Positions 11,299 to 32,875 of a stretch of 35,039 nt of DNA are shown here, piece by piece (positions within the stretch are counted from its first letter, which is position 1; the number at the start of each line of letters is the position of its first letter). Below the pieces are notes generated by a model. It saw only the letters and a program-made list of their open reading frames with translations, searched no databases and was not told the DNA's origin. A program made the translations under genes and the position numbers. Origin of the DNA: Polyangiaceae bacterium (GTDB lineage: Bacteria > Myxococcota_A > Polyangia > Polyangiales > Polyangiaceae). The stretch is taken from assembly GCA_029261965.1 (NCBI GenBank), contig JAJDAH010000034.1, positions 1-35,039 of the forward strand, written 5' to 3'.

Positions 11299-11418
11299 GT
11301 CGGTCACCCAGATGCCCCAGCTGCCTGGTGCCGTAGCCGAGCCGGGGATGACGAATTTGTCACTCCCAAGCCGTTCCCCACACTTTTAGGCTTTTTTTCT
11401 GGTTACGTGCAGGCACCC

Positions 11419-12399
11419 ATGACTGTTCAACTTCTCATCGATGCCATCGTTCGACAGACCACAGTTCTCATCGCACAGCTCGCGACGGCGGGGGGGGTCC
11501 GGGCGCCGCTTGCGAACGTTGCCAATCAGGTCTTCGTAGATCTCAGCCGCGAGCTCGAAGCCCACGGCGTGAGCCGAAAGGTGAGCGCTGACATGTTTGG
11601 CATGGCGCTGCGCACATACTTGCGAAAGATCCAGCGCCTCAACGAAAGCTCAACGGACCGCGGCCGGTCGCTTTGGGAAGCGGTGTTCGGGTTCATCCGC
11701 GAGCAGGAGGTGGTCACGCGTGCCGAAGTCGAGCGACGCTTCCACCGAGATGACGAGGTGCAGCTCCGCGGTGTCCTGCGCGATCTGACTGACAGCGGTC
11801 TCGTATTCTCGAGCGGCACGGGACACAGGACGGCCTACAGAGCGACGTCCGAAGACGACGTGGATCGGCTTCGACGGGGAGACTCACCTGACGAGATGAT
11901 CTGGGCTCTGGTCTTCTGTGACGGTCCCATTGGGCGGGACGCCTTGGCCAAGTTGTGCTCGATGAGCCCGGTCGACATGGACGGTGCGCTCGATCGCCTG
12001 ACGGCCACAGGTCGCGTGGCGCGAGATGGCACAGGCGACCAGGCCGTGTTCACGGCCATGGAGCTCTTCGTTCCGCTGGACGCGACCGTCGGCTGGGAAG
12101 CGGCGGTGTACGACCATTTTCACGCCCTCGTTCAGACCCTCTGCCGCAAGACTAACCAGGACCCTGGCGCGTCGAGCGCGGACGTGGTCGGCGCGTCGAC
12201 GTACACCTTCGACCTATGGGACGGACACCCATTCGAGGAGCGCGTGATGAGCTCCTTGCGTAGCTTTCGTGCGGAATACAGTGAGCTTCGCGCGGAGGTC
12301 GAAGAACACAACGCGACGGCCGCGCGAGCGTATAGCAAACGCGTCGTAGTCTATGCGGGACAGTACGTTGCCGAGGAGCATCATGAGACACTGGATTGA
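11419..12399 (+). CDS. Conserved winged-helix-like protein of myxobacterial type
   Basis: A 326-residue soluble protein. Residues 1-85 are helical (TVQLLIDAIVRQTTVLIAQL, then SADMFGMALRTYLRKIQRL, which looks like an HTH). Two winged-helix-like units follow: about 95-155 (LWEAVFGFIREQEVVTRAEV with VLRDLTDSGLVF) and about 170-230 (IWALVFCDGPIGRDALAKLC with ALDRLTATGRVARDG). The C-terminus is a helical hairpin. The pattern suggests DNA binding; no function is established. ATG at 11419 is preferred over the GTG at 11407 because it puts the conserved MTVQLL at the start. Its end overlaps the next lipoprotein gene by 17 bases, so the two are translationally linked. Confidence 0.65.
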   Translation: MTVQLLIDAIVRQTTVLIAQLATAGGVRAPLANVANQVFVDLSRELEAHGVSRKVSADMFGMALRTYLRKIQRLNESSTDRGRSLWEAVFGFIREQEVVTRAEVERRFHRDDEVQLRGVLRDLTDSGLVFSSGTGHRTAYRATSEDDVDRLRRGDSPDEMIWALVFCDGPIGRDALAKLCSMSPVDMDGALDRLTATGRVARDGTGDQAVFTAMELFVPLDATVGWEAAVYDHFHALVQTLCRKTNQDPGASSADVVGASTYTFDLWDGHPFEERVMSSLRSFRAEYSELRAEVEEHNATAARAYSKRVVVYAGQYVAEEHHETLD

Positions 12400-13969
12400 A
12401 GACGCCACTGGGATCATCGTAGCCACAGCCGTGTTGGCCGCGTCCGGCTGCGGAACGTCGACTCAACCATCGCCGGGCGGGGAGACCCACGTTGTCGCGT
12501 GTGACTCGGACGACCGCTGCACGATGCCTGGCCAGGTGTGCGTCGACGGTTGGTGCCGCGATGAATCGAATGGCGACGGCGGAACAATCGACGCCGAACA
12601 CGACGCAGGTCCGCTCGAGGGCGGTCGACCCGACGTCCCGCTCATTCTGGGCGAATGCTACGCGACCGACTGCGACTCGGAGGTGACCGTGGTCCCGTAC
12701 GAGCCGGGCCCAACGACGTCCTGCATGCCGACGCAGCTGGGGAAGGGAACACTGGACTGGACTTGGACTGCCGATGACGTCCAATGCGACCTTCCGCCCT
12801 GTGCCGTCCAGTATGGAAACTCGTTTCGGGTGGAGCCCGGAGGGGCGTTGGACCTTTTCGGGTGGGCGTCCGTGGCGAACGAAGCGGGGTCGGGCCTGTG
12901 GTTCGGACGTCTGAGCGCGAGCGGTGAGATCATCGAGTCGGCGGTCGTTGAAGCCGATGCTCCCTCTCGCTTCGCCACGTCGACCGGCTACTTCCCGCTC
13001 GGTTTCGATGGGCAAGGGAACCGCTTTCTCATGCTGTGGCGGCGCGTCCGCCCTGACGAGGACGGGTTCGAGGCGCAACTCGCGCGTTACGATCAGTCCG
13101 ACGATCGAAGGCGCGTGCTCGCCGACATTGGCCAGGTCCTCAGCACCGATGGTGCGGTCAGCCCCAGTGGGGACGTGGTGGTCGAGCTGGTCTGGAACAA
13201 TCCCAATCGGCAGCACCCTGATTTCGACATCGGAGGGGGGTTGGACGTGGCCCGATTTGACGCCAATGGTCGCCTCTTGTGGAATCAGGTCCAACTGGCT
13301 GACGTCCTGACGGTGACCAACTTGCTGACCGTAGGGTTTGACGTCAACGAGCATGCGATCGTCGTGATGCTCGATCAGACCACGGCAAACGGCCTCCAAC
13401 TGACGAACGGAAGCCTCTTAGGTGGTCACAAACATCGCCTGGCGGCGATCGATCGCCGGGGGCGCGTAACCCGTGCGTGGGACGTAGCGGATCCGCGTGA
13501 GTCCGTGGGTTGGTCATACGCGGTCGTCTCGGACGGCAGCGTCTACGCGACCAGCACCCCGCTGATTCCCGTAGGCGCGCTGTTCGAGTACGGAACGCCG
13601 CAGCTCGAGCGGTTCGACGCGTCAGGTCGTTCGAGTTGGGTGCAGCGCATTCCGTTCACGCATGTAGAGGATGTCCTCCTGCACGTCGATCGAGCGGGGA
13701 ACGCCGTGCTGGTGAGCCACGATCCTCGCGACACGCCGACGGGCCCGGTCGTCGACTGGACGATCATCCAACCCGACGGGCGGACCTGCGTGCGGTTCGA
13801 GGTGCCGTGCGCGAGCGGATCGACGGGCGACGTCATCTGCCCCGGTGCCGACGGTAGGGATGGGCGCGGCGGGAAGGTAGTCGAGGCGCAGGATGGGCGG
13901 TTCTACTTCGCTGCGAACACCGAATCGAGCGAGGTAGCGACGTTCGGGCGCGTGACGAGGCCTCAATGA
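12383..13969 (+). CDS. Beta-propeller-like lipoprotein, cassette A gene 1
   Basis: A 528-residue lipoprotein: ATG at 12383 with GAGGAG upstream, lipobox AASGC (Cys23). A short Cys-rich segment follows (CDSDDRC, GQVCVDGWC). Then comes a conserved block LGECYATDC, PYEPGPTTSC, DWTWTADDVQCDLPPC. The rest (about 150-528) is a series of beta-rich repeats such as GLWFGRLSASGEI, VARFDANGRLLWNQ and LERFDASGRSSWVQ, which look like PQQ/SBBP-type propeller blades. It ends in FGRVTRPQ. It is paralogous to the gene at 30123. Function is unknown; surface binding or sensing is an inference. It overlaps the SGNH gene by four bases (ATGA). Confidence 0.8.
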   Translation: MRHWIEDATGIIVATAVLAASGCGTSTQPSPGGETHVVACDSDDRCTMPGQVCVDGWCRDESNGDGGTIDAEHDAGPLEGGRPDVPLILGECYATDCDSEVTVVPYEPGPTTSCMPTQLGKGTLDWTWTADDVQCDLPPCAVQYGNSFRVEPGGALDLFGWASVANEAGSGLWFGRLSASGEIIESAVVEADAPSRFATSTGYFPLGFDGQGNRFLMLWRRVRPDEDGFEAQLARYDQSDDRRRVLADIGQVLSTDGAVSPSGDVVVELVWNNPNRQHPDFDIGGGLDVARFDANGRLLWNQVQLADVLTVTNLLTVGFDVNEHAIVVMLDQTTANGLQLTNGSLLGGHKHRLAAIDRRGRVTRAWDVADPRESVGWSYAVVSDGSVYATSTPLIPVGALFEYGTPQLERFDASGRSSWVQRIPFTHVEDVLLHVDRAGNAVLVSHDPRDTPTGPVVDWTIIQPDGRTCVRFEVPCASGSTGDVICPGADGRDGRGGKVVEAQDGRFYFAANTESSEVATFGRVTRPQ

Positions 13970-15360
13970 CTGGAGGCGACTGCCCAGGACGTGTCATTGC
14001 ACCGGCAGTCATCGGCGCGGCGATCGCGCTGTCTTGCGGCGGCCGAGTGCTTTTTTCCCCTTCCGGGGAGGATGGTGGCTTGGGAAGCGCCGGCGCCAGC
14101 GGCGACTCCAGCGCTGGTAGCGGTGCCTCGGCTGGCTCCAACGGGGGCAGCCCGAACGTCGCCGGCGCAGGTGGAGCGAGCGCGCCGGGTCTCGGAGGCG
14201 GCGCGGGCCGGGACGCGGCGCTCGATCGGTTGATCGAGGACGGACGTACTCTCGACTCTCTCGCCGAGGACGAACTCCGACTCGTGTGTCTCGAAGACGC
14301 GCGGCTCAGCGACAGCTGCGTCGAGCGAGGAATGGACCAGCCATCTCGAGAGGCTTGCGAGGAGTTCATTGCTGGGTGCCGACCCACCGTCGACGCTGTC
14401 AGCTGCAACGAGCTGCGTCGATTCGACTGCCCCGCGCTCGTCGCCGATCTCTTCTCCTGCCTGGAGGCTTGGTACCCGCTGCTCGGCTGCGACCGGAAGG
14501 GCGACCTCATCGAGACGCCCGAGCCGTGTCGACCGCTCCGTGAGTGCGACGAGTTTCGAAATGAGTTCTTTCAGTTCGGCCTTCCACCGTCGTGTGATCC
14601 GGCCACCGCGCCCGATCGACCACCGGCGGACGACGGCATTTTCGGCCTCGACGGTTGCGCGCCGTTGCCTGAGCGGCTCATCGCGCTCGGCGGCAGCGTG
14701 ATCACCTGCACCGGCGACGAACCCGACGGATACGGGTGCGCTCCCGACATGCTCGCCCATTACATCCGGACCAAATATTCGCCCAATCTCCAGTACGAGA
14801 ACCTCGCTTCTAGCGGCGGCCTGGGGGGCTTTTCGAACCTCCGCCGCCAGGCCGAGCTGGCGGGACCGAGTACCGGTCACGTCGCTGTCTTCATCTTCTC
14901 GTTGCCCGACGACATCGACCCGGCGGCGCTCGAGATCGACCGATGGCGGACCGAGTTCGAGGACTCTATGAGTTACTTCGCCGATCCCGGCGTTGCATCG
15001 GGCGCGACGTTTCTCCTGAACACCCAGTACAGCCCGAGCGATCAGTGTCCCCATCCACTGGTTCCAGTCATCGGCCCCCCACCTCTGAATCAGGAGGAGG
15101 AGGACGCCCTGCTCGCGATCAACCAGGATCTGTTCATCCAGGTCGGTGTGACGCGTGCCGACACGGTCACGGTCGACCAACATTCCGACTGGCTCGGCCA
15201 CGGCTGGCAGCGCGGCGCTCCCGGCTGCCCGCATTGCTACAGCGACAACACGCCGTGGCTGTCCGACGGGATTCACCCGAATCGACTCGGCCAGGTCCAC
15301 ATTTTCGAGAAATGGCGAATCGCAGTGGACAGGATATATGGCGAGGGGTGCGCTGGATGA
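13966..15360 (+). CDS. SGNH/GDSL-hydrolase-like lipoprotein, cassette A gene 2
   Basis: A 464-residue lipoprotein (lipobox ALSC, Cys24) with a Gly/Ser/Ala linker to about residue 82. A Cys-rich domain follows (about 90-210; GRTLDSL, LVCLEDARLSDSC, ECDEFRNEF). Then comes an SGNH hydrolase-like domain (235-460): Ser244 in LGGSV (block I), Gly284 near NLASSGG (block II), Asn352 in LLNTQYSP (block III), and Asp434/His437 in DGIHPN (block V). The catalytic triad is intact although block I reads GGS instead of GDS. It is probably a surface esterase or acylhydrolase of unknown substrate. The start codon overlaps the previous stop (ATGA). It is paralogous to the gene at 31532. Confidence 0.8.
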   Translation: MTGGDCPGRVIAPAVIGAAIALSCGGRVLFSPSGEDGGLGSAGASGDSSAGSGASAGSNGGSPNVAGAGGASAPGLGGGAGRDAALDRLIEDGRTLDSLAEDELRLVCLEDARLSDSCVERGMDQPSREACEEFIAGCRPTVDAVSCNELRRFDCPALVADLFSCLEAWYPLLGCDRKGDLIETPEPCRPLRECDEFRNEFFQFGLPPSCDPATAPDRPPADDGIFGLDGCAPLPERLIALGGSVITCTGDEPDGYGCAPDMLAHYIRTKYSPNLQYENLASSGGLGGFSNLRRQAELAGPSTGHVAVFIFSLPDDIDPAALEIDRWRTEFEDSMSYFADPGVASGATFLLNTQYSPSDQCPHPLVPVIGPPPLNQEEEDALLAINQDLFIQVGVTRADTVTVDQHSDWLGHGWQRGAPGCPHCYSDNTPWLSDGIHPNRLGQVHIFEKWRIAVDRIYGEGCAG

Positions 15361-16940: not shown

Positions 16941-17225
16941 AGTTTTGGGTCTGAGGATTCGAGGGTCGAGCCCTCGGATCCGGGGGCGTTCTCGGCGCAT
17001 GGCGCGACGGCGTCCTGAGGGGTCGGCGGGCTCGCCTCCGGGCGTGCGCGCAGTCTCACGAGGCTGCACTTCGACGACCAGCGAAGCAGGCCCCCCCTGC
17101 ATCACAGTCAGCCCTTCGGGGACGTGAAAGCGTCTTGTTCCCACTCTCGGCGCCGATTGAGGGTCGCGCGCCGCGTGGTTGTCGAACACTTCGGCAGGCC
17201 ATGTTGCGCGCCGAGAATCTACACC
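16941..17225. other. Gap without recognisable gene
   Basis: Between the IS-end-like repeats and the defence operon I see no supported gene. A long minus-strand frame crosses it but lacks any family motif. Together with 16681-16940 it makes a gap of nearly 600 bases. Confidence 0.4.
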
Positions 17226-17254
17226 TTGACAGCGCATATGCAGTATGAAATAAG
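17226..17254 (+). promoter_or_regulatory. Possible promoter of the four-gene operon
   Basis: A perfect TTGACA (17226-17231) is followed by a markedly AT-rich stretch containing TATGAAATAA. The -10 element is poor at standard spacing. A palindrome TCACGTGA lies at about 17269-17276, just before the first gene, and could be an operator. Confidence 0.3.
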
Positions 17255-17290
17255 GATGTTCACGTAGCTCACGTGAGGGACATGAATATA

Positions 17291-17860
17291 ATGAGGATTC
17301 GGCTTGCGGAGATGAATACGGGCCCCGTCTTGGCTGGGGCGGTGAACGGTCGGGCTCTGCTCACACGCTTGCTGGACGCGACCGCGGATGAGCCGCGAGA
17401 ACCCGAACCGCTCCTTTTGGATTTTGGCGACATCGACGTCGCCACGGCGAGTTTCCTGCGGGAGAGCCTTCTGACATTCCGCGACGTCGTTCGACACCGG
17501 CGCTCGAACTTCTACCCGGTTGTCGCCAATGCGCCCAAGGCTGTCTTGGAGGAACTCGCTGAAGTCTTGGAACCACGAGGTGATGTGATGATGACGTGCA
17601 AGATCCACGGCGACGATTCGGTAGCCGACGCCGAGCTGATTGGTCAACTAGATCCGAAGCAGAAGCTCACCTTCGAACTCGTCCGAGAACACGGCGAAAC
17701 CGACGCACGCGAGCTGATGCGTGACTACGGAGAGCGCGAACAGCTCAAACACCCGACCGCTTGGAACAACCGCCTGGCGTCTCTCGCCGGACTCGGCCTT
17801 ATCGTCGAATTGAGCGAGGGTCGCTCGAAACGGTACCGACGACTCTTCGGGGAACAGTGA
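17291..17860 (+). CDS. STAS-like (DUF4325-type) domain plus winged helix
   Basis: A 189-residue protein. Residues about 10-105 look like the STAS-like DUF4325 fold: a strand-helix pattern with LLLDFGDIDVATASFLRESL, comparable to anti-sigma antagonist-like proteins. Residues about 115-189 look like a winged helix (LTFELVREHGETDARELMRD, then NRLASLAGLGLIVELSEGRSKRYRRL). It could therefore be a DNA-binding regulator whose STAS part pairs with the GHKL ATPase encoded at the end of this operon. Alternative starts are ATG 17282 and GTG 17273; 17291 puts MRIRLAE at the N-terminus. The next gene starts three bases after the stop codon. Confidence 0.7.
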   Translation: MRIRLAEMNTGPVLAGAVNGRALLTRLLDATADEPREPEPLLLDFGDIDVATASFLRESLLTFRDVVRHRRSNFYPVVANAPKAVLEELAEVLEPRGDVMMTCKIHGDDSVADAELIGQLDPKQKLTFELVREHGETDARELMRDYGEREQLKHPTAWNNRLASLAGLGLIVELSEGRSKRYRRLFGEQ

Positions 17861-17863
17861 ATC

Positions 17864-18211
17864 ATGGGAATCGATTTCATTGAAAAGGCCGCGCCGACGT
17901 TCAAGAAGAGCTGGGATCGCGCTCGCGTGACTCTCGGTACGGCGGACTTGTTCACGCTCAGTCCCGACCGCACGGTTCGGATTGCTGCCGCCCACGTCAT
18001 CGGCGATGCGGAGCTTCGCAAGGGCGACCAGCTCACGGTGGAAATCCTAGACGGCGCGATGATCGCTCGTCGAGGCAATCGCAACGTCGCACGCTTCTCG
18101 AATCCGCCCCCCGTTCTTGTGCAAGCGGTTAGAGCGTCCAGCGGAATCGCCAAGGGGACGGTCGAGCAGGTGCATAACGTCGCGAACGTCGCGGAGATCT
18201 CCCTGTGCTAG
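17864..18211 (+). CDS. Small conserved protein of the four-gene operon
   Basis: A 115-residue protein with the N-terminus GIDFIEKAAPTFKKSWDRAR. Residues 45-90 are beta-rich (LRKGDQLTVEILDGAMIARRG) and resemble a small SPOC/AbrB-like barrel. The end is GIAKGTVEQVHNVANVAEIS. No catalytic motif is visible and I do not recognise a named family. It lies three bases after the STAS-like gene and overlaps the following gene by seven bases, so it is an integral member of the operon. Confidence 0.65.
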   Translation: MGIDFIEKAAPTFKKSWDRARVTLGTADLFTLSPDRTVRIAAAHVIGDAELRKGDQLTVEILDGAMIARRGNRNVARFSNPPPVLVQAVRASSGIAKGTVEQVHNVANVAEISLC

Positions 18212-19377
18212 CGCCTCGGTCTGGCTTGGCCGAGCGTGCTCCCGCTCATCGTCCGCATGTGAGATCTGACAAGCGACGCGAGCGGAGGCTCTGGCACGAT
18301 CCAAGCCTTCCGTCCGACTCGCTCGGTTGTACGACGTGCCGCGAACGTCGACTGTGCGGTGGGTTGCGAACACGCGGGGCTTTCTACGATTGCCTTCAAT
18401 ACTGCTGCGGCAGCGCCGCGGACTGTGACCGAGTCTGCCGGCACAACCCGCACTACGCCGACAGAGTACGAGAAGTCGAGACGTTCGACCTGGGCATGGT
18501 GCGGCGTCAAACCCCGGTGCCGCCGCCCTCCCTGCCGCCATTGGTACCAGTGGTCTATCACCGCGGTCGGCGTAGGCTTCCGCTTGCGTCGGACTTCGTC
18601 GCGCTTCCTTTGTATCGGACGTTCGACCGGCGTACGGGAGACCCGCGGTATGCAACGCGCGAGGACCTGCGCCGTGCCTTCGGGATCGAATCGAAGTCGC
18701 AGGTGCTGCTCACTGGAACGGACCGCGACGCGCCTTTGGAGCGGTGGTGGGGTCTTGGAGAAGCGCGGAGACGGAGCATCTTGCGGGCTCTTCGCGCGGC
18801 CGGTGTGTCATTGGTAACCACCCCCAACTACAGCCTCTTCGTCGATCGGCCTCGCTGGGATGACATGCACGCAATGAAGCGGATCGCGATCGTGCATTCT
18901 GAATTTCTGAGTGAGGGTCTCCCGGCCGCGTTGCACGTGAATGGGCGCACCGACCAGGATTTCCATCGTTGGGCCGAGTATGTTGAGGCGAGACCGGAGA
19001 TTACGCATCTGGCGTACGAGTTCTCGACGGGGACGGGTCGTCCGGTTCGGCGCAAACAGCATGCCGCGTGGCTGTCGGAGCTGGCACGGTCTGTCAACCG
19101 TCCATTGCACCTGATCACCCGTGGCGGGTGCGAAGTGCTGCCACTTCTTGGCAGCAGCTTTTCCGGCGTCACGTTGTTCGACACAACCATCTTCATGAAG
19201 ACGATGATGCGTCAGCGCGCATACGTGAGCGCCAAGGGCACGCTGACGTGGACACGGTCGCCGACGTCTACGCGCGAGCCACTCGACGATCTGTTCGCCG
19301 ACAATCAGGCCACGGTGGAGGCATGGCTAGGCGAACACACTGCGTCTACGGCAACGGCGCTTGGTGTGCATGTGTGA
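18205..19377 (+). CDS. DUF4417-like protein with N-terminal Cys cluster
   Basis: A 390-residue protein starting at the GTG at 18205, inside the end of the previous gene. An N-terminal cluster holds eight Cys in 37 residues (42, 45, 51, 63, 67, 68, 74, 78; CX2CX5C and CX3CCX5CX3C), which suggests an iron-sulfur or zinc site. The body (about 170-370) resembles DUF4417: SLVTTPNYSLFVDRPRWDDM, LPAALHVNGRTDQDFHRWAE, THLAYEFSTGTG and VTLFDTTIFMKTMMRQRAYV. A TIM-barrel-like alternation of strands and helices is likely. No reaction is known. The family name is from memory of its pattern, so the assignment is moderate. Confidence 0.6.
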   Translation: MLAPRSGLAERAPAHRPHVRSDKRRERRLWHDPSLPSDSLGCTTCRERRLCGGLRTRGAFYDCLQYCCGSAADCDRVCRHNPHYADRVREVETFDLGMVRRQTPVPPPSLPPLVPVVYHRGRRRLPLASDFVALPLYRTFDRRTGDPRYATREDLRRAFGIESKSQVLLTGTDRDAPLERWWGLGEARRRSILRALRAAGVSLVTTPNYSLFVDRPRWDDMHAMKRIAIVHSEFLSEGLPAALHVNGRTDQDFHRWAEYVEARPEITHLAYEFSTGTGRPVRRKQHAAWLSELARSVNRPLHLITRGGCEVLPLLGSSFSGVTLFDTTIFMKTMMRQRAYVSAKGTLTWTRSPTSTREPLDDLFADNQATVEAWLGEHTASTATALGVHV

Positions 19378-20198
19378 CACGTCACGAAACCACCCCGTTT
19401 ACTTTCGAGACCCTGGACGGACTCGCCTTCGCCGGCGAACGCGGCCTGTTAGAACATGGCGCCGTACCGCCCTATGCGACGCACGACATCGGTCCGATCG
19501 TCGAAATGTACCAGGTCGCTGCTTGCAATGTGCTGCCGCGTCCGCATGCCGCCCCCTGGTTGACCCTTGGAGCGTTGCATCCATTCGTCACGCAGCTCGA
19601 TGCGGGTTGCCGGCAGTGGGTTAGCCGCGGCGGCATCGGTTTCTTGAGAACCGCATCCCAGGGACCACAGGACGAGACGACTTGGACCGCGTTCGGCCTA
19701 GAAGTGCAACGGGCGGCGTCGCGCGCCGGCTTTACGAACCCGATCGCCGCGCAGCTCACGGCGGCTCTTGGAGAGCTGTACAGCAACATCTACGAGCACT
19801 CCCGACGATCGGGCACCGGGTTGATCGCCTTCAAGTCGGGGAAGCACGCATTCGAGATCGTTGTCGCCGACCGCGGCGTTGGCGTGCTCGATAGCCTTCG
19901 GACTCACGGGGAGTACGGAACCCTTGCCGATCACGGCGAGGCACTGCACCTCACGCTGACCGAGGGGGTGTCGCGATACGGTGAAGGCACAGGTCGCGGC
20001 TACGGGTTTCGCCCGCTGTTCATCGGGCTGGCCAACATCCGCGGCGCCCTACGCTTTCGATCGGGCGATCACGCACTCGTGATCGATGGGACAAGCCCGA
20101 CCCTAGTAACCGCGCGGTCGGCGCAGAAGGTGCCTGTCCCCGGCTTCATGGTCGCGGTCAAGTGCGGGACACCGGGGACCTCAACAATGCGATCGTAG
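19374..20198 (+). CDS. GHKL-type ATPase (HATPase domain)
   Basis: A 274-residue protein. GTG at 19374 overlaps the previous stop (GTGA), so it is translated by coupling. The N-terminal 115 residues are of unknown fold. Residues 120-240 form a GHKL ATP-binding domain: N box ELYSNIYEHS (134-143), G1 box DRGVGV (167-172), G2 box GTGRGYG (205-211). It resembles anti-sigma-factor kinases and the ATPase of sensor kinases, but has no dimerisation/phospho-acceptor His domain. With the STAS-like protein encoded first, it may form a partner-switch-like pair. It ends 55 bases before the convergent kwaB gene. Confidence 0.8.
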   Translation: MTRHETTPFTFETLDGLAFAGERGLLEHGAVPPYATHDIGPIVEMYQVAACNVLPRPHAAPWLTLGALHPFVTQLDAGCRQWVSRGGIGFLRTASQGPQDETTWTAFGLEVQRAASRAGFTNPIAAQLTAALGELYSNIYEHSRRSGTGLIAFKSGKHAFEIVVADRGVGVLDSLRTHGEYGTLADHGEALHLTLTEGVSRYGEGTGRGYGFRPLFIGLANIRGALRFRSGDHALVIDGTSPTLVTARSAQKVPVPGFMVAVKCGTPGTSTMRS

Positions 20199-20253: not shown

Positions 20254-21168
20254 TCAGTCACCATTCTGGTTCGAGCTGGTCAATCGCCGCTTCGACGTGC
20301 TGACATAGACTCTCTCGCTCAACATGCCCTCGACGTAGTCCTCGTCGAGAAGGCGTAGTAGACGCTTGAGTTCTTTCTTCTCGTGGGGCAGGGAAATCAC
20401 TCCGCCGTCCATCGTCAGCTCGATATCGCAACGCTCTGCCACGTCGCGCAAGTGCTTCTCATCGACCCCCTCCATGATCAGGCTCCGGTTGATCGACGCG
20501 ATCTTGCGGCGAACGTAGTCATCAAGCATGCCTTCATGTACAGCCGGATCGAAGTCTGCGAAGTGAGGCCCCTGTAGCAGTTCGGCGACTTCCTCGTCGG
20601 TCGCTTCTTGAAACAGCATGTCTAGACTCAGGAATCGACGGACCATGAACTCGCTCTCAAAGAAGAGGTGGCCGTCCTCCCAGACGGCATGCAGGCGGTT
20701 ATCAATCTCCACGCCCGCTTTCGACTCCAAGCGAAACGCTCCTGCGCTAAGGATGACTGCAAGTCGGTTCCCGACGCCAAGGAAGCGGCGGCGATCGATG
20801 GCCTGAAACACAAAGCGCGCGTTCTGTCGGCGGGTCGAATGGTAGACGCCAACGAGTGCGCGAGGGGCTTCCTCTTGAAGGTCCGCCTTCGAGAGGTGAG
20901 GGATTGCCGCTGGCACCGCGCGCTGCACGGCGGACAAGCCGTCTGGAAGCTCGTATCGGACCTGTATCAGGTCTCCCCCGTCGGGCTTGTACCCGGGTTC
21001 GTAGTCGTGAAACTCAGCGCCATCGACGAAGAACCCCGCTAGTAGCTCGTTGAACTTCCCCTCGACAACCGGTTGGGTTTCACCGTGCAACGGTACCGTT
21101 CGGACCTCCGGTTCACTTCGGCTTCCAGTCAGAGCGATCAGGCTGAACATGCTTCCCCTCTTGGTCAA
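20254..21168 (-). CDS. kwaB: KwaB, Kiwa anti-phage protein (DUF4868)
   Basis: A 304-residue soluble protein of the DUF4868 type. Its central segment IDNRLHAVWEDGHLFFESEF, then MVRRFLSLDMLF, is the pattern that defines the family. The C-terminal half is helical and charged, ending in TSKRRLTSSNQNGD. KwaB is the DNA-binding partner of the membrane protein KwaA in the Kiwa defence system, which acts against phage DNA replication. The length is close to the described about 315 residues. The start (21168, or Met7 at 21150) lies inside the end of kwaA, so the two are translationally coupled. It is convergent with the four-gene operon. Confidence 0.75.
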   Translation of the reverse strand: MTKRGSMFSLIALTGSRSEPEVRTVPLHGETQPVVEGKFNELLAGFFVDGAEFHDYEPGYKPDGGDLIQVRYELPDGLSAVQRAVPAAIPHLSKADLQEEAPRALVGVYHSTRRQNARFVFQAIDRRRFLGVGNRLAVILSAGAFRLESKAGVEIDNRLHAVWEDGHLFFESEFMVRRFLSLDMLFQEATDEEVAELLQGPHFADFDPAVHEGMLDDYVRRKIASINRSLIMEGVDEKHLRDVAERCDIELTMDGGVISLPHEKKELKRLLRLLDEDYVEGMLSERVYVSTSKRRLTSSNQNGD

Positions 21169-21661
21169 TTAATAACCACAAATAGCGCGTTAGCTCCCGA
21201 ACGCGCAAGCGTCCCGGCGACACCACCTCGGCCTTGCTGATCAGGAGGACTTGCGCGCCCGAATCGTCCCTGCATTTGTAGAAACGCCAGCCCATGAGGG
21301 CCATGAGGGGGTTCACGAAGTAAAGGCGCTGCTGCCAGATGACGAGCGCCATGAAAAGAATGAGAACTACGAGCCCAAGTTGATTCGGCGCGGTTTTCCC
21401 CGTCAGGATCGGAAGCGCGTACGCGACCAAGAAAGCTAGGGGCTCCTTGTCGATTGCGTCAGCTTCTTCGATTACTCGGGCCAGCTGGGGCGCTTGTCGA
21501 CGTCCGATGTCCAGAATCAGCCACGCGATCAGCACGAGTACCAATGAAGCCCATCCGACGTAGCGTCCTTCGACCGTTCCGAAGCTCGTGGCCGCGTAGA
21601 CGAAGCCGATCGGAGCAAGCGCCGTCGCGACGAGCAGAAATTGAGCGAATTTCGTGAACAA
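21113..21661 (-). CDS. kwaA: KwaA, Kiwa membrane protein
   Basis: A 182-residue membrane protein with four hydrophobic segments: about 7-29 (LLVATALAPIGFVYAA), 33-52 (VGWASLVLVLIAWLIL), 73-90 (LAFLVAYALPIL) and 93-125 (LGLVVLILFMALVIW). The C-terminal part is cytoplasmic. The start is TTG at 21661, supported by a perfect AGGAGG (21667-21672) five bases upstream. KwaA senses phage attack at the membrane and works with KwaB; here the order kwaA-kwaB with overlapping ends is exactly the Kiwa arrangement. KwaA sequences diverge strongly, so the call rests on topology, size and context. Confidence 0.7.
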   Translation of the reverse strand: MFTKFAQFLLVATALAPIGFVYAATSFGTVEGRYVGWASLVLVLIAWLILDIGRRQAPQLARVIEEADAIDKEPLAFLVAYALPILTGKTAPNQLGLVVLILFMALVIWQQRLYFVNPLMALMGWRFYKCRDDSGAQVLLISKAEVVSPGRLRVRELTRYLWLLIDQEGKHVQPDRSDWKPK

Positions 21662-21890: not shown

Positions 21891-23488
21891 TCAGTGCTTG
21901 TCCTCATGCCTTTTTCCTGCTGCAGATTTCGCAGGCTCGCTGGTAACTGCGGCGTGCTTGCCGGCGATCTCGACGGCGCCGCCGGCGCCGACGACGACCT
22001 CCTCGACGCAGCCGCGCACGTAGGTGCGGGCCGTGCTCTCGTCCGCGAGCAGCGCTGTGCGGAGTGCCGCCTGAAATCTAGCGACCGTGTCCTGGTCGTA
22101 CAGCCCCGACGGTGTCGCGTGGATGACGCTCACCGTCGCGAGCTTCTCCTCCACGTCAGTGAGCCTCTCCTCGACCTCGATGACACGGACGTGCAGCGAC
22201 GGGCCAGGAACATCATTGGACTCGATGGCGTCGACCAATCGATCACGTCGGCGAGACAGGTCGCGTTGTTCGTTCTGCCACCGGCGTCGCTCCTCGGCAG
22301 CTCGGTGTCGAAGGATGCCTTGTTCCTCGACGAGGTCGCGCAGGATTTCCCGGCACCGCGTTGTGGAGAACAACCTCGTCGCTAGGAAATCGAGCACCGC
22401 GCCGTCGAGAACATCGACCCGATGGGGTCTCCCCGGGCACGCGTCGATGCTGCTCCGACGAGCGCGACGGCACTGATAGTACCGATACGGTGTGCCGTCG
22501 GGGCGACGTTTGCCGGCGGTCTGCAACTCGTACTTCTCTCCGCAGCGTCCGCAAACCACCAAGCCGGTCAAAAGCAGAGGGCTCGACGAAGCGCGACCAG
22601 GGTTTCGCCCTGGGTCTCGACGTCGGCGCTCCGTTTGCGCTCGCTCGAACGTCTCGCGACTAATGATCGCCGGGCACGCCACGACGACGACCTCATCATC
22701 GGCGCGCCGCTCACCAGTGCGCGAGTTACGGCGACCCCACCGAGCTTCACCGATGACGGCTGGGTTGCTGACGATCTTCAGGACCTTGTCGCGGTCGAAG
22801 AGTTTTCTTCGGTAGCGGTGACCAGCCGCGTTCAACTCCTTCGCGACCTCAACGGCGCCTTTTGAGGATAGGTAGAGCCGGAAGACGAGTCGGACGAGCT
22901 CGGCCTCGGTCGGTTCGACCTCGAGCTTCTTCTTCACTCGGACTCCCCCGGCGAGGGGACCGCGACCATTCGGTAGCCGAAGGGCGCCTTGGAACCATTC
23001 CAGTATCCGGCTCTAGCGTTCTGCTTCATGGCGGCCCTCGTCCTTCGGCCGATCTGTTCGGACTCGAGCTGGTCGATGAGCTCGAACATTCCCTCCACGA
23101 ACCGTCCCGTCGGATCGTCCTCGACCGGCTGCTGGATGGAGACGACTCGAATGCCTCGTTTCGCGAGCGCGGCCTTGTGGATGCGAGCCTTCGTCGCGTC
23201 CCGCATGAAGCGACTCGAATGCACCAGTAGGATCGTGCCGATTCGGTTGTCGGGCGCGTACAGGGCGTCGAGCATCTTCCTGAATGCCGGCCGATTATCG
23301 TCAGTCGCAGTCGCGCCTCGTTCGACATAGTCCCTGACGATAGTCAGCCCTTCACGCGCCGCGTGGTCACGGATATCCGCGAGCTGACCGTCGAGAGACA
23401 TTCCGCGCGCCTGCTCCGGGGTTGAGACCCTCACGTAGACCACGCAGAGCTTGGCGTCGGTGAGCTGAGCAGAACGGCGGCGAGGCAT
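21891..23488 (-). pseudogene. Large serine recombinase, frameshifted
   Basis: The frame is broken into two parts with a GTGA junction at 22934-22937. Part 1 starts at the ATG at 23488 and holds the catalytic domain: Ser22 in YVRVSTPEQ, HSSRFMRD, and AAMKQNARAGYWNGSKAPFG. Part 2 (22937-21891) holds the recombinase domain (KKKLEVEPTEAELVRLVF), a zinc ribbon (VVCGRCGEKYEL, CPG) and a coiled coil (RAAEERRRWQNEQRDLSRRR). One extra G in the G5 run at 22944-22948 would give GGVRVKKKLEV, the usual continuous sequence. A frameshift mutation, a sequencing error or translational coupling of two halves are all possible. It lies between the Kiwa genes and two small accessory genes. Confidence 0.85.
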
Positions 23489-23490
23489 AT

Positions 23491-23700
23491 CTACTCGTTG
23501 TCGTCGCCGACGTCGGCTGGGGCTTGATCGGGAGTGCGGAGGATTTCGTCGAGCGCCGCGACTGCAAATGGCAGGAGTAGCTCGAACTCCCACGGTTGAA
23601 GCTCGTCGGGGACGTGGAGCTCGCCGCTGACGACGAGCCTCTGTCGACGGCGCGGAAATCTCTCTGCGGTCGTGAGCTTGCGGCTATACTCTTTGGTCAT
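23491..23700 (-). CDS. Small recombinase-linked protein
   Basis: A 69-residue acidic protein (ATG at 23700). Its stop codon TAG is followed two bases later by the recombinase ATG at 23488, so translation is almost certainly coupled. It has no known motif; a central hydrophobic helix (WEFELLLPFAVAALDEIL) is visible. It is probably an accessory gene of the recombinase element. Confidence 0.55.
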   Translation of the reverse strand: MTKEYSRKLTTAERFPRRRQRLVVSGELHVPDELQPWEFELLLPFAVAALDEILRTPDQAPADVGDDNE

Positions 23701-29904: not shown

Positions 29905-30122
29905 GGGGCTACGAGCGACGGGTGTTCGAGCGCCCAAGCGACATGACCTGATTCCTAGGGAGTATCATGGTGTTGGTGTCCACGTTGGAGCCGGCGCGAC
30001 TCCTGCTTGCGGCTGGGGACCTTGGCGAACCGAAAATGGCTCATTCTGACCACGGGACGGCCCAAACTTCGGATATCTACTTCTTTGTGAGCTATTTTTC
30101 CCCGCTTGCGGTCCCCAGAAGC

Positions 30123-31532
30123 GTGACCATCCGCCTCTGGGCCTCGGGGCTCGGCGTTCTCTTTGGGCTTTTGGGCTGCTCGACCGCGCAGACGAACGTG
30201 ATCGAGAGTCGGCCCGCCGATTGCGGGGCCGCCGAGTGCGATGCGGCAGCTGCGCCGGAGCCCGAGCTGGTGCTCGGCGAATGCTTTCAGACCAACTGCG
30301 AGGGCGACGTCGAGGTCGCGCAATACGAGCCCGGGCCGACCATCGAGTGCGAAGCAACGCATTTGGGCACCGGTACGATCGCTTGGGTCTATCGGACCGA
30401 CGCAATCGATTGCCTGACCCCGCCATGCTCGAGCGACTATCACAGCATTCGCGTCGACGCCGCCGGAAACCTAGACGTCGCCGGCCGGCTCGCATCAAAT
30501 GACTTCACAGATGTAGGCCTCTGGTTCGCGCGGTTCGCGGACGACGGGACGGAGATAGATTTCACCGTCGTCGACGCGGCGTTCCGGACACGGTTCACCC
30601 AACCTTCGTTCAGTCTCGCGGTCGGCGCTGACGCAACAGGCAAGTGGTTCGTCGGCAAAGCTATCGGCGACCCCAATATTAGCCGTGTCACGAACTACGA
30701 GCTTCACCGATTCGACGAACCGAAAGTGTCCACGCTTCTTACAGCCGTTAGCGACGTCATCAACGTCAGAACTGCTGTCAGTCTGGGCAGCGACTTCGCG
30801 CTCCTGACGATCTGGCCCGATATCATCTTCGACGAAGACGACGTTCTCGCGCCATCGAATCCAACTAGGCCACTCGATATTTCTCGGTTCGACGCGTCCG
30901 GCCGTTTGCTGTGGAATCAAACGAAACTGACGCGGGCGCTGCCGCTGACTCACACTAATCTCGTCGGGTTCGATGCTGCCGGGAATCTGACCATCGAGCT
31001 GCAGCAGGAAGGCAATCTCGGTTTCGCCGAGCTGCCGAGGGCTCCTGACGGAACCATTCCCGCCTTGGTAGCCCGCCGGCTCGCCCGTCTCGATCGAGAC
31101 GGCAACCTGCTCTGGGTCTGGGATGTACCTCACTCCGCAGAAGGGAGCTACGCGATCGCGCCCGACGGCGCCATGTACGTCATCCGTCAGCCTTACGATC
31201 AATTCTATGTGAAGCAATCAGCCGTACTGGAGAGACTTGACGCGATGGGCCGCTCGCAGTGGATTTTGGATCTGGGCGACGATTGCGACGAGGTGGCCAT
31301 CGATGCCGAGGGCAACGCGGTCGTTGTGCTTGGAGCCACGTGGGCGGACACGTCGATGCGTTTTCAACAGGTCGGCCCCAACGGCCAACGCTGTGAGTCG
31401 TTTAACGTTCCGTGCCTCGAGCAGGCCAACGGTGAACGTCTGTGCGCCGGAGACGAACTCCAGGTTGCTCCGGACGGCGATATTCTCTTCGCGGTGCGCA
31501 ACGCGATCGGCCGAGTCACGAGACCAGAGTGA
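30123..31532 (+). CDS. Beta-propeller-like lipoprotein, cassette B gene 1
   Basis: A 469-residue lipoprotein; GTG at 30123 puts the lipobox GLLGC at Cys19, which fits, whereas the longer open frame back to 29967 would add an improbable N-terminal tail. The body parallels cassette A gene 1 (12383): LGECFQTNC, YEPGPTIEC, GTIAWVYRTDAIDCLTPPC, GLWFARF, ISRFDASGRLLWNQ and the end IGRVTRPE. Propeller-like blades are visible (LARLDRDGNLLWVW, LERLDAMGRSQW). The stop codon overlaps the next ATG by one base. Its function is unknown; it is probably on the cell surface. Confidence 0.8.
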   Translation: MTIRLWASGLGVLFGLLGCSTAQTNVIESRPADCGAAECDAAAAPEPELVLGECFQTNCEGDVEVAQYEPGPTIECEATHLGTGTIAWVYRTDAIDCLTPPCSSDYHSIRVDAAGNLDVAGRLASNDFTDVGLWFARFADDGTEIDFTVVDAAFRTRFTQPSFSLAVGADATGKWFVGKAIGDPNISRVTNYELHRFDEPKVSTLLTAVSDVINVRTAVSLGSDFALLTIWPDIIFDEDDVLAPSNPTRPLDISRFDASGRLLWNQTKLTRALPLTHTNLVGFDAAGNLTIELQQEGNLGFAELPRAPDGTIPALVARRLARLDRDGNLLWVWDVPHSAEGSYAIAPDGAMYVIRQPYDQFYVKQSAVLERLDAMGRSQWILDLGDDCDEVAIDAEGNAVVVLGATWADTSMRFQQVGPNGQRCESFNVPCLEQANGERLCAGDELQVAPDGDILFAVRNAIGRVTRPE

Positions 31533-32875
31533 TGTGGTTGGCGCCGACCTCATTGATCGAGAAGATCACATCCGTAAGAACAATCGCCGCGCTGATGTTG
31601 CTGCTTTCGGCCTCCGGTTGCGGCGGACGCGTATTCGACGGCTCCGGCGCAGGCAGCGGCGGTGTGGGCGCAGGGGCCGCTGGCCATGCGGGGACCACGG
31701 GTGGCACAGGCGGCTCCAGCGGCCAGGCGGCGGGTCTACCCGCCGAGGGTCGGACTCTCGACTCTCTCAGCCTCAGCGAGATGCGCGCGCTGTGCCTCGA
31801 GGACGCTCGACGTACTGATCCTTGCCTGGCCCTTGGACTGAGCGAATGGGACCGCGCGGACTGCGAGGTCAAGGTCACCGCGTGTAGCGCAGCACCTCCA
31901 CTCGACGAAACCGACGCCAAGTGCGACGAGGTCCGTGTCATCCGCGACTGCCCGGTCACCGTGGCGCAATTCTTCGAGTGCGTCGACGCCTGGAACCCGA
32001 CGCAGACGTGCGAAAACGCCGGAGTGTTCATTCAGACGCCTGCGTCGTGCCTGCCCGTCGCGGAGTGTGATGAATTTAAGTTCGAATTCGAGCAGTTCGG
32101 CAGGCCGCCGCCATGTGCTCTCGATGAGATCACCGAACGGCTCGCCGACACCAACGACGACATCTATGGTCTCGATGGTTGCTCCGCGGTTCCAGATCGG
32201 TTCATCGTTCTGGGGAACAGCGTGGCAACCTGTGACGGGCGCGATCCGGACGGTTGGGGCTGTGCGCCGAGCATGCTCGCCCACCATTTGCGGACTAGCT
32301 ACTCGCCGCAGCTCGAGTATCAGAACCTTGCTGTCCCCGGCAACCTCGGCAGTTTCCAGAATCTCCTAGCTCAGGCGGAACGAGCCGATCCGACGGTGGG
32401 TCGCGTCGTCGTGTGGATCTACTCGCTGCCGGAAGATCCTCGCTCAACCGACCTCGATCTCTGGCGCGCTCAGCTAGACGCGGTGATGCGTCACTTTTTG
32501 GAACCGGCGGTCGCGTCCGAGGGGGCGATCTTCATGCTCAACACCCAGTACAGCCCGAGCGACCAGTGCCCCAACCCGCCGACTCCGTACGACTCCGGCA
32601 GCCTCACGCTCGAGGAGGAAGCGACGCTTCAAGAGCTCAATCGGAACCTGTTCATCGACCTGGCGCTAGAGCGCGCCGACACGGTAACCGTCGATCAGTA
32701 CCCCGACTGGTTGGGGCATGGTTGGAACGCCGGCGTGGCGAGTTGCCCTCACTGCTATGAGGACAACGTGCTCTGGCAGGGCGATCCGATCCACCCGAAC
32801 CAGCTTGGGCAAGTGCACATCTTCGAGAAGTGGCAGATCGCGGTGGACCGGATCTACGGAGCGGGGTGTCCGTAG
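31532..32875 (+). CDS. SGNH/GDSL-hydrolase-like lipoprotein, cassette B gene 2
   Basis: A 447-residue protein paralogous to the gene at 13966. Lipobox SASGC (Cys30), then a Gly/Ser linker. The Cys-rich domain (70-195) shares GRTLDSL, LCLEDARRTDPC and ECDEFKFEF. The SGNH-type domain (220-445) keeps Ser230 in LGNSV, Gly270 near NLAVPGN, Asn337 in MLNTQYSP and Asp418/His421 in DPIHPN. The segments LNTQYSPSDQCP and GQVHIFEKW-IAVDRIYG-GC are nearly unchanged between paralogues, which suggests strong selection. The ATG overlaps the previous stop (TGATG), so translation is coupled. Substrate unknown. Confidence 0.8.
   Translation: MWLAPTSLIEKITSVRTIAALMLLLSASGCGGRVFDGSGAGSGGVGAGAAGHAGTTGGTGGSSGQAAGLPAEGRTLDSLSLSEMRALCLEDARRTDPCLALGLSEWDRADCEVKVTACSAAPPLDETDAKCDEVRVIRDCPVTVAQFFECVDAWNPTQTCENAGVFIQTPASCLPVAECDEFKFEFEQFGRPPPCALDEITERLADTNDDIYGLDGCSAVPDRFIVLGNSVATCDGRDPDGWGCAPSMLAHHLRTSYSPQLEYQNLAVPGNLGSFQNLLAQAERADPTVGRVVVWIYSLPEDPRSTDLDLWRAQLDAVMRHFLEPAVASEGAIFMLNTQYSPSDQCPNPPTPYDSGSLTLEEEATLQELNRNLFIDLALERADTVTVDQYPDWLGHGWNAGVASCPHCYEDNVLWQGDPIHPNQLGQVHIFEKWQIAVDRIYGAGCP

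Follow-up and report, generated by a model that had tools for sequence, protein, structure and literature searches.

A four-gene module with a CapKS-like kinase-repressor pair, carried among exchangeable defense systems, is probably a new switch-plus-payload of bacterial immunity

A 35,039-nucleotide stretch of DNA from a Polyangiaceae bacterium (contig JAJDAH010000034.1; hereafter, the window) carries a module of four closely packed genes on the plus strand, at positions 17291–20198, next to a Kiwa defense system. Gene 1 resembles CapS and gene 4 resembles CapK, the two components of a switch by which DNA damage turns on immune operons (Chambers et al., EMBO J 2026; PMC13373217), while genes 2 and 3 encode a small protein and a cysteine-rich protein. 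The four genes probably serve bacterial immunity as a new switch-plus-payload, since the unit combines a CapKS-like switch with travel across distant bacteria beside many different antiviral systems. The interpretation that we favor, to which we give about an even chance of being right, is that of a self-contained, autoregulated CapKS-like stress switch, which has genes 2 and 3 as its payload and is carried among defense systems.

Results

Gene 1 and gene 4 resemble CapS and CapK

When the four module proteins were compared with Pfam, NCBIfam, and PADLOC, only a HATPase match and a weak DUF4325 match were worth following. Profile searches of Protein Data Bank (PDB) sequences with genes 2, 3, and 4 gave nothing convincing.

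Gene 1 (17291–17860, plus strand; 189 amino acids), whose open reading frame (ORF) has an alternative GTG start upstream, at 17273, encodes a CapS-like protein with a STAS domain and a winged helix and is the predicted autorepressor of the module. Both domains are present in its AlphaFold2 (AF2) model, which has a mean predicted local distance difference test score (pLDDT) of 95.9. In fold comparison (VIA), STAS proteins were matched with Z scores of 9.2 to 10.5 (9.3 for SpoIIAA of the SpoIIAB complex), and the C-terminal half matched winged-helix folds. The fusion of a STAS-like domain to a winged helix, proposed in a preliminary description of this DNA, is thus supported by the model and the fold matches, with a weak match to Pfam DUF4325 (E = 0.04). 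CRISPR-associated Csa3 was the top Foldseek hit but, with a template modeling (TM) score of 0.29, was not accepted as a relative.

The profile search of PDB sequences with gene 1 returned weak co-linear matches to 9z72 (E = 0.02) and 9z71 (E = 0.08). The latter is identical to an Enterobacter sequence located upstream of a Bub operon, and both entries seem to represent the CapS structures reported in PMC13373217. Chain A of 9z72 reads TDAAFPRES, while a 98% identical natural Vibrio relative (L088, 3983–4534; L numbers designate loci) reads TDASFPRES; the crystallized protein may be a serine mutant. Aligned by hhalign with a profile of the CapS family, built from CapS relatives gathered from plasmids, gene 1 matched over its full length (probability 97.7, E = 1.9e-12); genes 2, 3, and 4, used as controls, gave no match. 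In published work, single-stranded DNA (ssDNA) activates CapK, Ser54 of CapS is phosphorylated, the CapS dimer breaks, and the immune operon is derepressed (PMC13373217). Ser54 of gene 1 (codon at 17450–17452, plus strand) is aligned with this phosphorylated residue (IDVATAS54FLRES in gene 1, IVATDSS54FPRES in CapS) and is invariant in 53 sequences. As judged from these alignments, gene 1 is homologous to CapS along its whole length, the phospho-serine included.

Gene 4 (19374–20198, plus strand; 274 amino acids) encodes a CapK-like GHKL kinase. It matches Pfam HATPase_c_2 (5e-7), and its GHKL domain aligns with CapK (hhalign probability 96.8, E = 2.5e-10), which no other module protein did. 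Invariant columns include N138, which corresponds to the catalytic Asn of GHKL kinases, H142, D166-x-G168-x-G170, and G209/G211. At the level of sequence profiles, the kinase domain is homologous to that of CapK. The N-terminal region of gene 4 showed no similarity to CapS or to gene 1. The preliminary description had recognized gene 4 as a GHKL ATPase and noted that a STAS/GHKL pair recalls partner switching; the homology to CapS and CapK agrees with a pair of this type.

A predicted operator lies over the promoter of the module

Upstream of gene 1, a −35-like element CTTGAC (17225–17230, plus strand) is followed by a predicted operator, defined by a position weight matrix and matches in the window. 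It consists of the inverted repeat GTTCACGTAGCTCACGTGAGG at 17258–17278 and a second, overlapping inverted repeat 9 bp further on, at 17267–17287, so that three half-sites occupy 17258–17287 in total; some relatives have four. The consensus of the inverted repeat upstream of gene 1 is YTCACGT-N5-ACGTGAR. In most measurable upstream regions TTGAC is found 27 to 28 bp before the inverted repeat (34 in the window), a spacing that places the repeat over the −10/+1 region. The pattern TCAY-N8/9-RTGA was present upstream of gene 1 in 71 of 75 loci, compared to a background of 0.76% per 65-bp window. In contrast, none of the 70 regions upstream of the first neighbor gene contained the module operator, and the Kiwa promoter region of the window has no copy either. 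Because the operator is found at module promoters and not at those of neighbors, the winged helix of gene 1 most likely acts on the promoter of the module itself.

The four genes recur as a unit in distant bacteria

Three bases separate gene 1 from gene 2, the ends of genes 2 and 3 share 7 bases, and genes 3 and 4 have GTGA in common; the coordinates and overlaps listed in the preliminary description were all correct. Hidden Markov models built in this analysis detected all four families together at 74 of the 83 loci with gene 3. Most of the loci that fell short of four families lie at contig ends, hold degenerate copies, or have a DUF4417 protein on its own. When each species was represented by one genome, a scan yielded 68 loci, mostly from Alphaproteobacteria, with others from Armatimonadetes, Nitrospinae, Sulfopaludibacter, Planctomycetota, and Gammaproteobacteria. 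The four families are also present on plasmids of Aminobacter, Sinorhizobium, Rhizobium, and Planctomyces. In the 379 genomes of the phylum to which the window belongs, gene 3 was found in 7, with gene 4 beside it in 6, while gene 4 was found in 2 of the 372 genomes lacking gene 3 (Fisher P = 5e-11). The recurrence at 74 of 83 loci and the co-occurrence within the phylum rule out a chance neighborhood of the four genes, in agreement with their earlier description as one unit.

There are three main gene orders, and defense genes adjoin the module in many genomes. Order I, that of the window, is 1-2-3-4; in order II, genes 1-2-3 are followed by a convergent gene 4; order III is 4-1-2-3. Gene 1 is followed by genes 2 and 3 in each of them, and gene 4 is the moving member. 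In a distant locus (L005), gene 4 seems to be divergent. At two loci (L010, 9108–10007, and L011, 9108–9947, minus strand), public annotation has an antisense ORF, where the genuine coding sequence is gene 4 on the opposite strand.

The closest relatives of the window copy are alphaproteobacterial and Armatimonadetes copies (about 56 to 62%), and copies from its own phylum are at 25 to 34%. Since the closest copies lie outside the phylum, the window copy was, by sequence comparison, probably acquired horizontally. Phage records contained no close relative of gene 3. A contig of the viral collection IMG/VR (L008/L086) carries the module, gene 3 relative included, together with a kwaB-like gene.

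Defense systems beside the module are exchanged

Neighboring genes were assigned using PADLOC, Pfam, and clustering, with some cluster members assigned by similarity to one scanned member. Known defense systems were neighbors in about half of the loci, which should be far above the chance expectation for rare defense genes. Directly or nearly directly downstream of the module we found Gabija (L011, L041, L044, L047, L065, and L067–L069), Kiwa (the window, L010, L032, L036, L037, L054, and L086), Hachiman (L033, L035, L039, L062, and L071), short Argonaute with SIR2 (L038, L050, L061, and L076), long Argonaute with a nuclease (L072 and L078), Hma (L009, L025, and L031), and type III restriction-modification (R-M) (L028, L034, and L077; upstream in L026). 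Other downstream systems were type IIG R-M (L022), Mokosh (L012), an OLD-like ATPase (L030), and BrxL of BREX (L024). AbiE is frequent upstream. The defense-island setting suggested earlier is borne out by this recurrence of unrelated defense systems as direct neighbors.

A tree of gene 3 (a quick tree with several open forks) required 3 changes in gene order, compared to at least 20 in the partner label. A Gabija-bearing locus (L011) and a Kiwa-bearing locus (L036) share 77% DNA identity through the end of gene 4 and diverge 72 and 39 bp before the start of the neighbor; on the evidence of the aligned DNA, this is a natural exchange of partners at the module edge. In gene order II, the neighbor is co-directional with gene 1 in 26 of 33 loci (P = 0.001), often starting 37 to 150 bp from gene 4. 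In gene order I, it lies on the opposite strand in 15 of 29 loci, as does Kiwa in the window.

The Kiwa system of the window consists of adjoining kwaB (20254–21168, minus strand; PADLOC 1.5e-49) and kwaA (21113–21661, minus strand; PADLOC 2.6e-34), which lie outside the module and are convergent with gene 4. Because of this orientation, any control of Kiwa by the module must be exerted in trans. We rejected the possibility that Kiwa is part of the operon, as it lies on the opposite strand and other systems take its place elsewhere. Kiwa is one of more than 10 exchangeable neighbors. The preliminary description had linked the module to Kiwa: the system is indeed real and adjacent, but it is convergent, exchangeable, and has a promoter region free of the module operator.

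Genes 2 and 3 as a proposed payload

We call genes 2 and 3 the payload chiefly on account of their position: all main gene orders place them downstream of the operator, whereas order II has gene 4 elsewhere. Gene 2 (17864–18211, plus strand) encodes a 115–amino acid protein that belongs to no known family and had no convincing match in Pfam, NCBIfam, PADLOC, or PDB. Its N terminus is Met1-Gly2, and Gly2 is present at 75 of 76 loci, compared to a background of 4.2%.

Gene 3 (18205–19377, plus strand; 390 amino acids) encodes a DUF4417-like protein in which a Cys-rich N-terminal part precedes a predicted TIM barrel of the tRNA-guanine transglycosylase (TGT) type (AF2 model, pLDDT 88.5). As described earlier, there are exactly eight cysteines in 37 residues (positions 42, 45, 51, 63, 67, 68, 74, and 78; 18328–18438, plus strand), as seen in the sequence and the alignment. 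Among 53 relatives, Cys42, Cys45, Cys51, and Cys63 are invariant columns and each of the remaining four is conserved in 90% or more; the cluster is a probable metal-binding module. In the fold ranking (VIA), ranks 1 to 32 were all occupied by TGTs (Z scores from 16.6 to 13.4), the best match being an archaeal TGT. These were followed by Cap10 of type IV CBASS (Z = 12.6) and then by other barrels (at most 11.5). Viral fold matches include phage queuine tRNA-ribosyltransferases.

At the sequence level, gene 3 had no match to Pfam TGT, and hhalign against 28 TGTs gave a probability of 0.2. By hand alignment, the position of the TGT nucleophile Asp reads FD in the window but E or S in some relatives. 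Given the lack of a significant sequence relation and these substitutions, we do not claim TGT chemistry for gene 3. Its cysteines are at the N terminus, unlike the C-terminal Zn site of TGT. Plasmid DUF4417 proteins are homologs of gene 3. As to the DUF4417-like body of the preliminary description, one relative (L017) matches Pfam DUF4417 (PF14386) above the cut-off with 36.4 bits, two (L016 and L002) fall below it, and the gene 3 of the window itself had no match.

Surroundings of the module in the window

A large serine recombinase past Kiwa (21891–23593, minus strand) is split into two ORFs with a 4-base overlap, one with the Resolvase N-terminal domain and the other with the Recombinase domain and Zn ribbon. 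A second one, in a single ORF, lies near the contig end (33169–34818, plus strand). The two are possibly the mobility genes of an island that contains the module and Kiwa; the setting next to Kiwa and recombinases was already noted in the preliminary description and is confirmed by the PADLOC matches of kwaA and kwaB and by these ORFs. Upstream of the module, three successive overlapping long ORFs (330, 538, and 464 amino acids; 11407–15360, plus strand) had no Pfam or PADLOC match. Beside the second recombinase there are two long overlapping ORFs with no convincing family match (29967–32875, plus strand).

Discussion

By analogy with CapKS, the module could work as follows. Gene 1 would bind its promoter at the inverted repeat, repressing genes 1-2-3 and, in the gene order of the window, gene 4 as well. 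Upon a signal, gene 4 would phosphorylate Ser54 of gene 1, the phosphorylated repressor would leave the DNA, and the levels of genes 2 and 3 would rise. The payload would thus be a small Met-Gly protein and a Cys-rich protein with the predicted TGT fold, most likely a pair that, in the course of phage infection or DNA damage, acts on a protein, a nucleic acid, or a nucleobase. The analysis establishes the gene content, its conservation, the homology to CapS and CapK, the conserved operator, and the exchange of neighbors. DNA binding by gene 1, phosphorylation of Ser54, and derepression are inferred from the homology to CapKS, and the effector role of genes 2 and 3 is proposed.

Several observations weigh against this interpretation. 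The co-directional neighbors of gene order II would also fit control of the neighbor. The relation of gene 3 to TGTs is one of predicted fold only. The N-terminal ~112 residues of gene 4 have no profile similarity to the ssDNA-contacting helix-turn-helix (HTH)–STAS region of CapK, and for this reason the activating signal may differ from that of CapK.

The main job of the module could instead be to switch on the neighboring defense system after DNA damage or infection, with genes 2 and 3 tuning the signal. We rank this second and consider it rather unlikely, though several points favor it: the kinase-repressor pair is the same as in CapKS, which controls its neighbor (PMC13373217); known defense systems flank about half of the loci and have been exchanged at least 20 times; neighbors in order II are predominantly co-directional (26 of 33) and often close to gene 4 (37 to 150 bp); and the DNA shared by Gabija- and Kiwa-bearing relatives reaches to within 39 to 78 bp of the neighbor's start. 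On the other hand, unlike in CapKS, the operator was found at 0 of 70 neighbor promoter regions, and in order I about half of the neighbors (15 of 29) are encoded on the opposite strand, as with Kiwa in the window; read-through cannot serve in those loci.

It is also conceivable, but improbable, that the module is a toxin-antitoxin system similar to VapKSC, where the STAS protein VapS inhibits VapC until it is phosphorylated by VapK (PMC13373217). Gene 1 (or gene 2) would then bind gene 3 and hold it inactive, and phosphorylation by gene 4 would free a toxic gene 3. The four genes do adjoin or overlap one another, as is usual with translational coupling, but gene 3 has no known toxin domain in Pfam, NCBIfam, or PADLOC, and the full winged helix and the conserved operator indicate that the target of gene 1 is probably DNA. 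Defense islands gather cargo of all kinds, so that an ordinary housekeeping or regulatory operon might lie near defense genes by chance. The module is, however, rare and patchy (7 of 379 genomes in its phylum), occurs on plasmids, and has unrelated defense systems as recurrent direct neighbors, which makes such an explanation very improbable.

If the self-contained switch is assumed, a more specific but improbable role of its payload would be inducible nucleobase-protein conjugation: the TGT-fold gene 3 would bind a modified base, or attach one, at the N-terminal glycine of gene 2 during infection, turned on by the CapKS-type switch. This idea stems from the conservation of Gly2 and from CBASS IV and qatABCD, where deazaguanylation-type modification takes place at, or depends on, an N-terminal glycine (PMC11996544 and PMC13279940). 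The absence of a QueC-like gene from the module, and the presence of only partial, weak QueC matches in the genome of the window, weigh against it.

Overall, these results extend a controller of immunity with two genes, described so far mostly for Bub and CBASS operons, to a unit of four genes found beside Kiwa, Gabija, Hachiman, Argonautes, Hma, BREX, and other systems. In this unit the predicted operator, the serine, and the proposed payload are all defined. Should genes 2 and 3 prove to be effectors, a class of defense-island genes labeled hypothetical or DUF4417 would acquire a role, and gene 3 would be the second TGT-fold protein in immunity after Cap10. Conjugation, if true, would represent a new immune effector chemistry and an exchangeable companion of many defense systems.

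Comparison with known systems

DUF4417 (PF14386) proteins of phages and plasmids occur alone or beside or fused to ParB-like domains (PMC12704722), without genes 1, 2, and 4. On a Streptomyces plasmid (L016, 4262–6696), a DUF4417 protein lies beside a ParB-N protein, and genes 1, 2, and 4 are absent. SpoIIAA/SpoIIAB and RsbV/RsbW are likewise pairs of a STAS protein and a GHKL kinase, but no sigma factor is encoded in the module and gene 1 has its own DNA-binding domain. Cap10 of the type IV CBASS pair Cap9/Cap10 (PMC11996544) has a TGT fold (9ntn, Z = 12.6 to gene 3), and the substrate begins with a glycine, as gene 2 would once its Met is removed; unlike that pair and QatBC (PMC13279940), the module has no QueC-like partner, and gene 2 shows no sign of a CD-NTase. 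VapKSC also combines, in one operon, a GHKL kinase without an HTH, a STAS protein, and a third protein. However, the module has no VapC/PIN nuclease, and gene 1 has a winged helix where VapS has a short C-terminal region.

We found no paper that combines DUF4325 with DUF4417, or STAS and GHKL with Gabija, and no published system with the four-gene composition. The earlier statement that no such system had been described therefore stands for the composition as far as we could find, but not for the switch half, which is homologous to CapS and CapK (PMC13373217). The module shares with CapKS a STAS–winged-helix protein with the same serine, a GHKL kinase, an inverted-repeat operator at its own promoter, and location beside immune operons. 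The reported partners of CapKS are Bub, CBASS, Thoeris IV, Bil, DUF4747, YegP, and R-M; the main text of PMC13373217 mentions no Kiwa, Gabija, Hachiman, or Argonautes. CapKS consists of two genes, with capK immediately before capS, while the module has two more genes, which have no counterpart in CapKS, and the order 1-2-3-4 in the window; gene 4 directly precedes gene 1, as capK does capS, in gene order III only. The N terminus of CapK is an HTH-STAS region with the ssDNA-contacting Trp68, which profiles did not detect in gene 4. Last, the CapKS operator is also found at the promoter of the neighboring immune operon, in contrast to the 0 of 70 neighbor promoter regions here. The differences in the order and number of genes and in where the operator occurs mean that the module, although it would work like the CapKS switch, is not CapKS.

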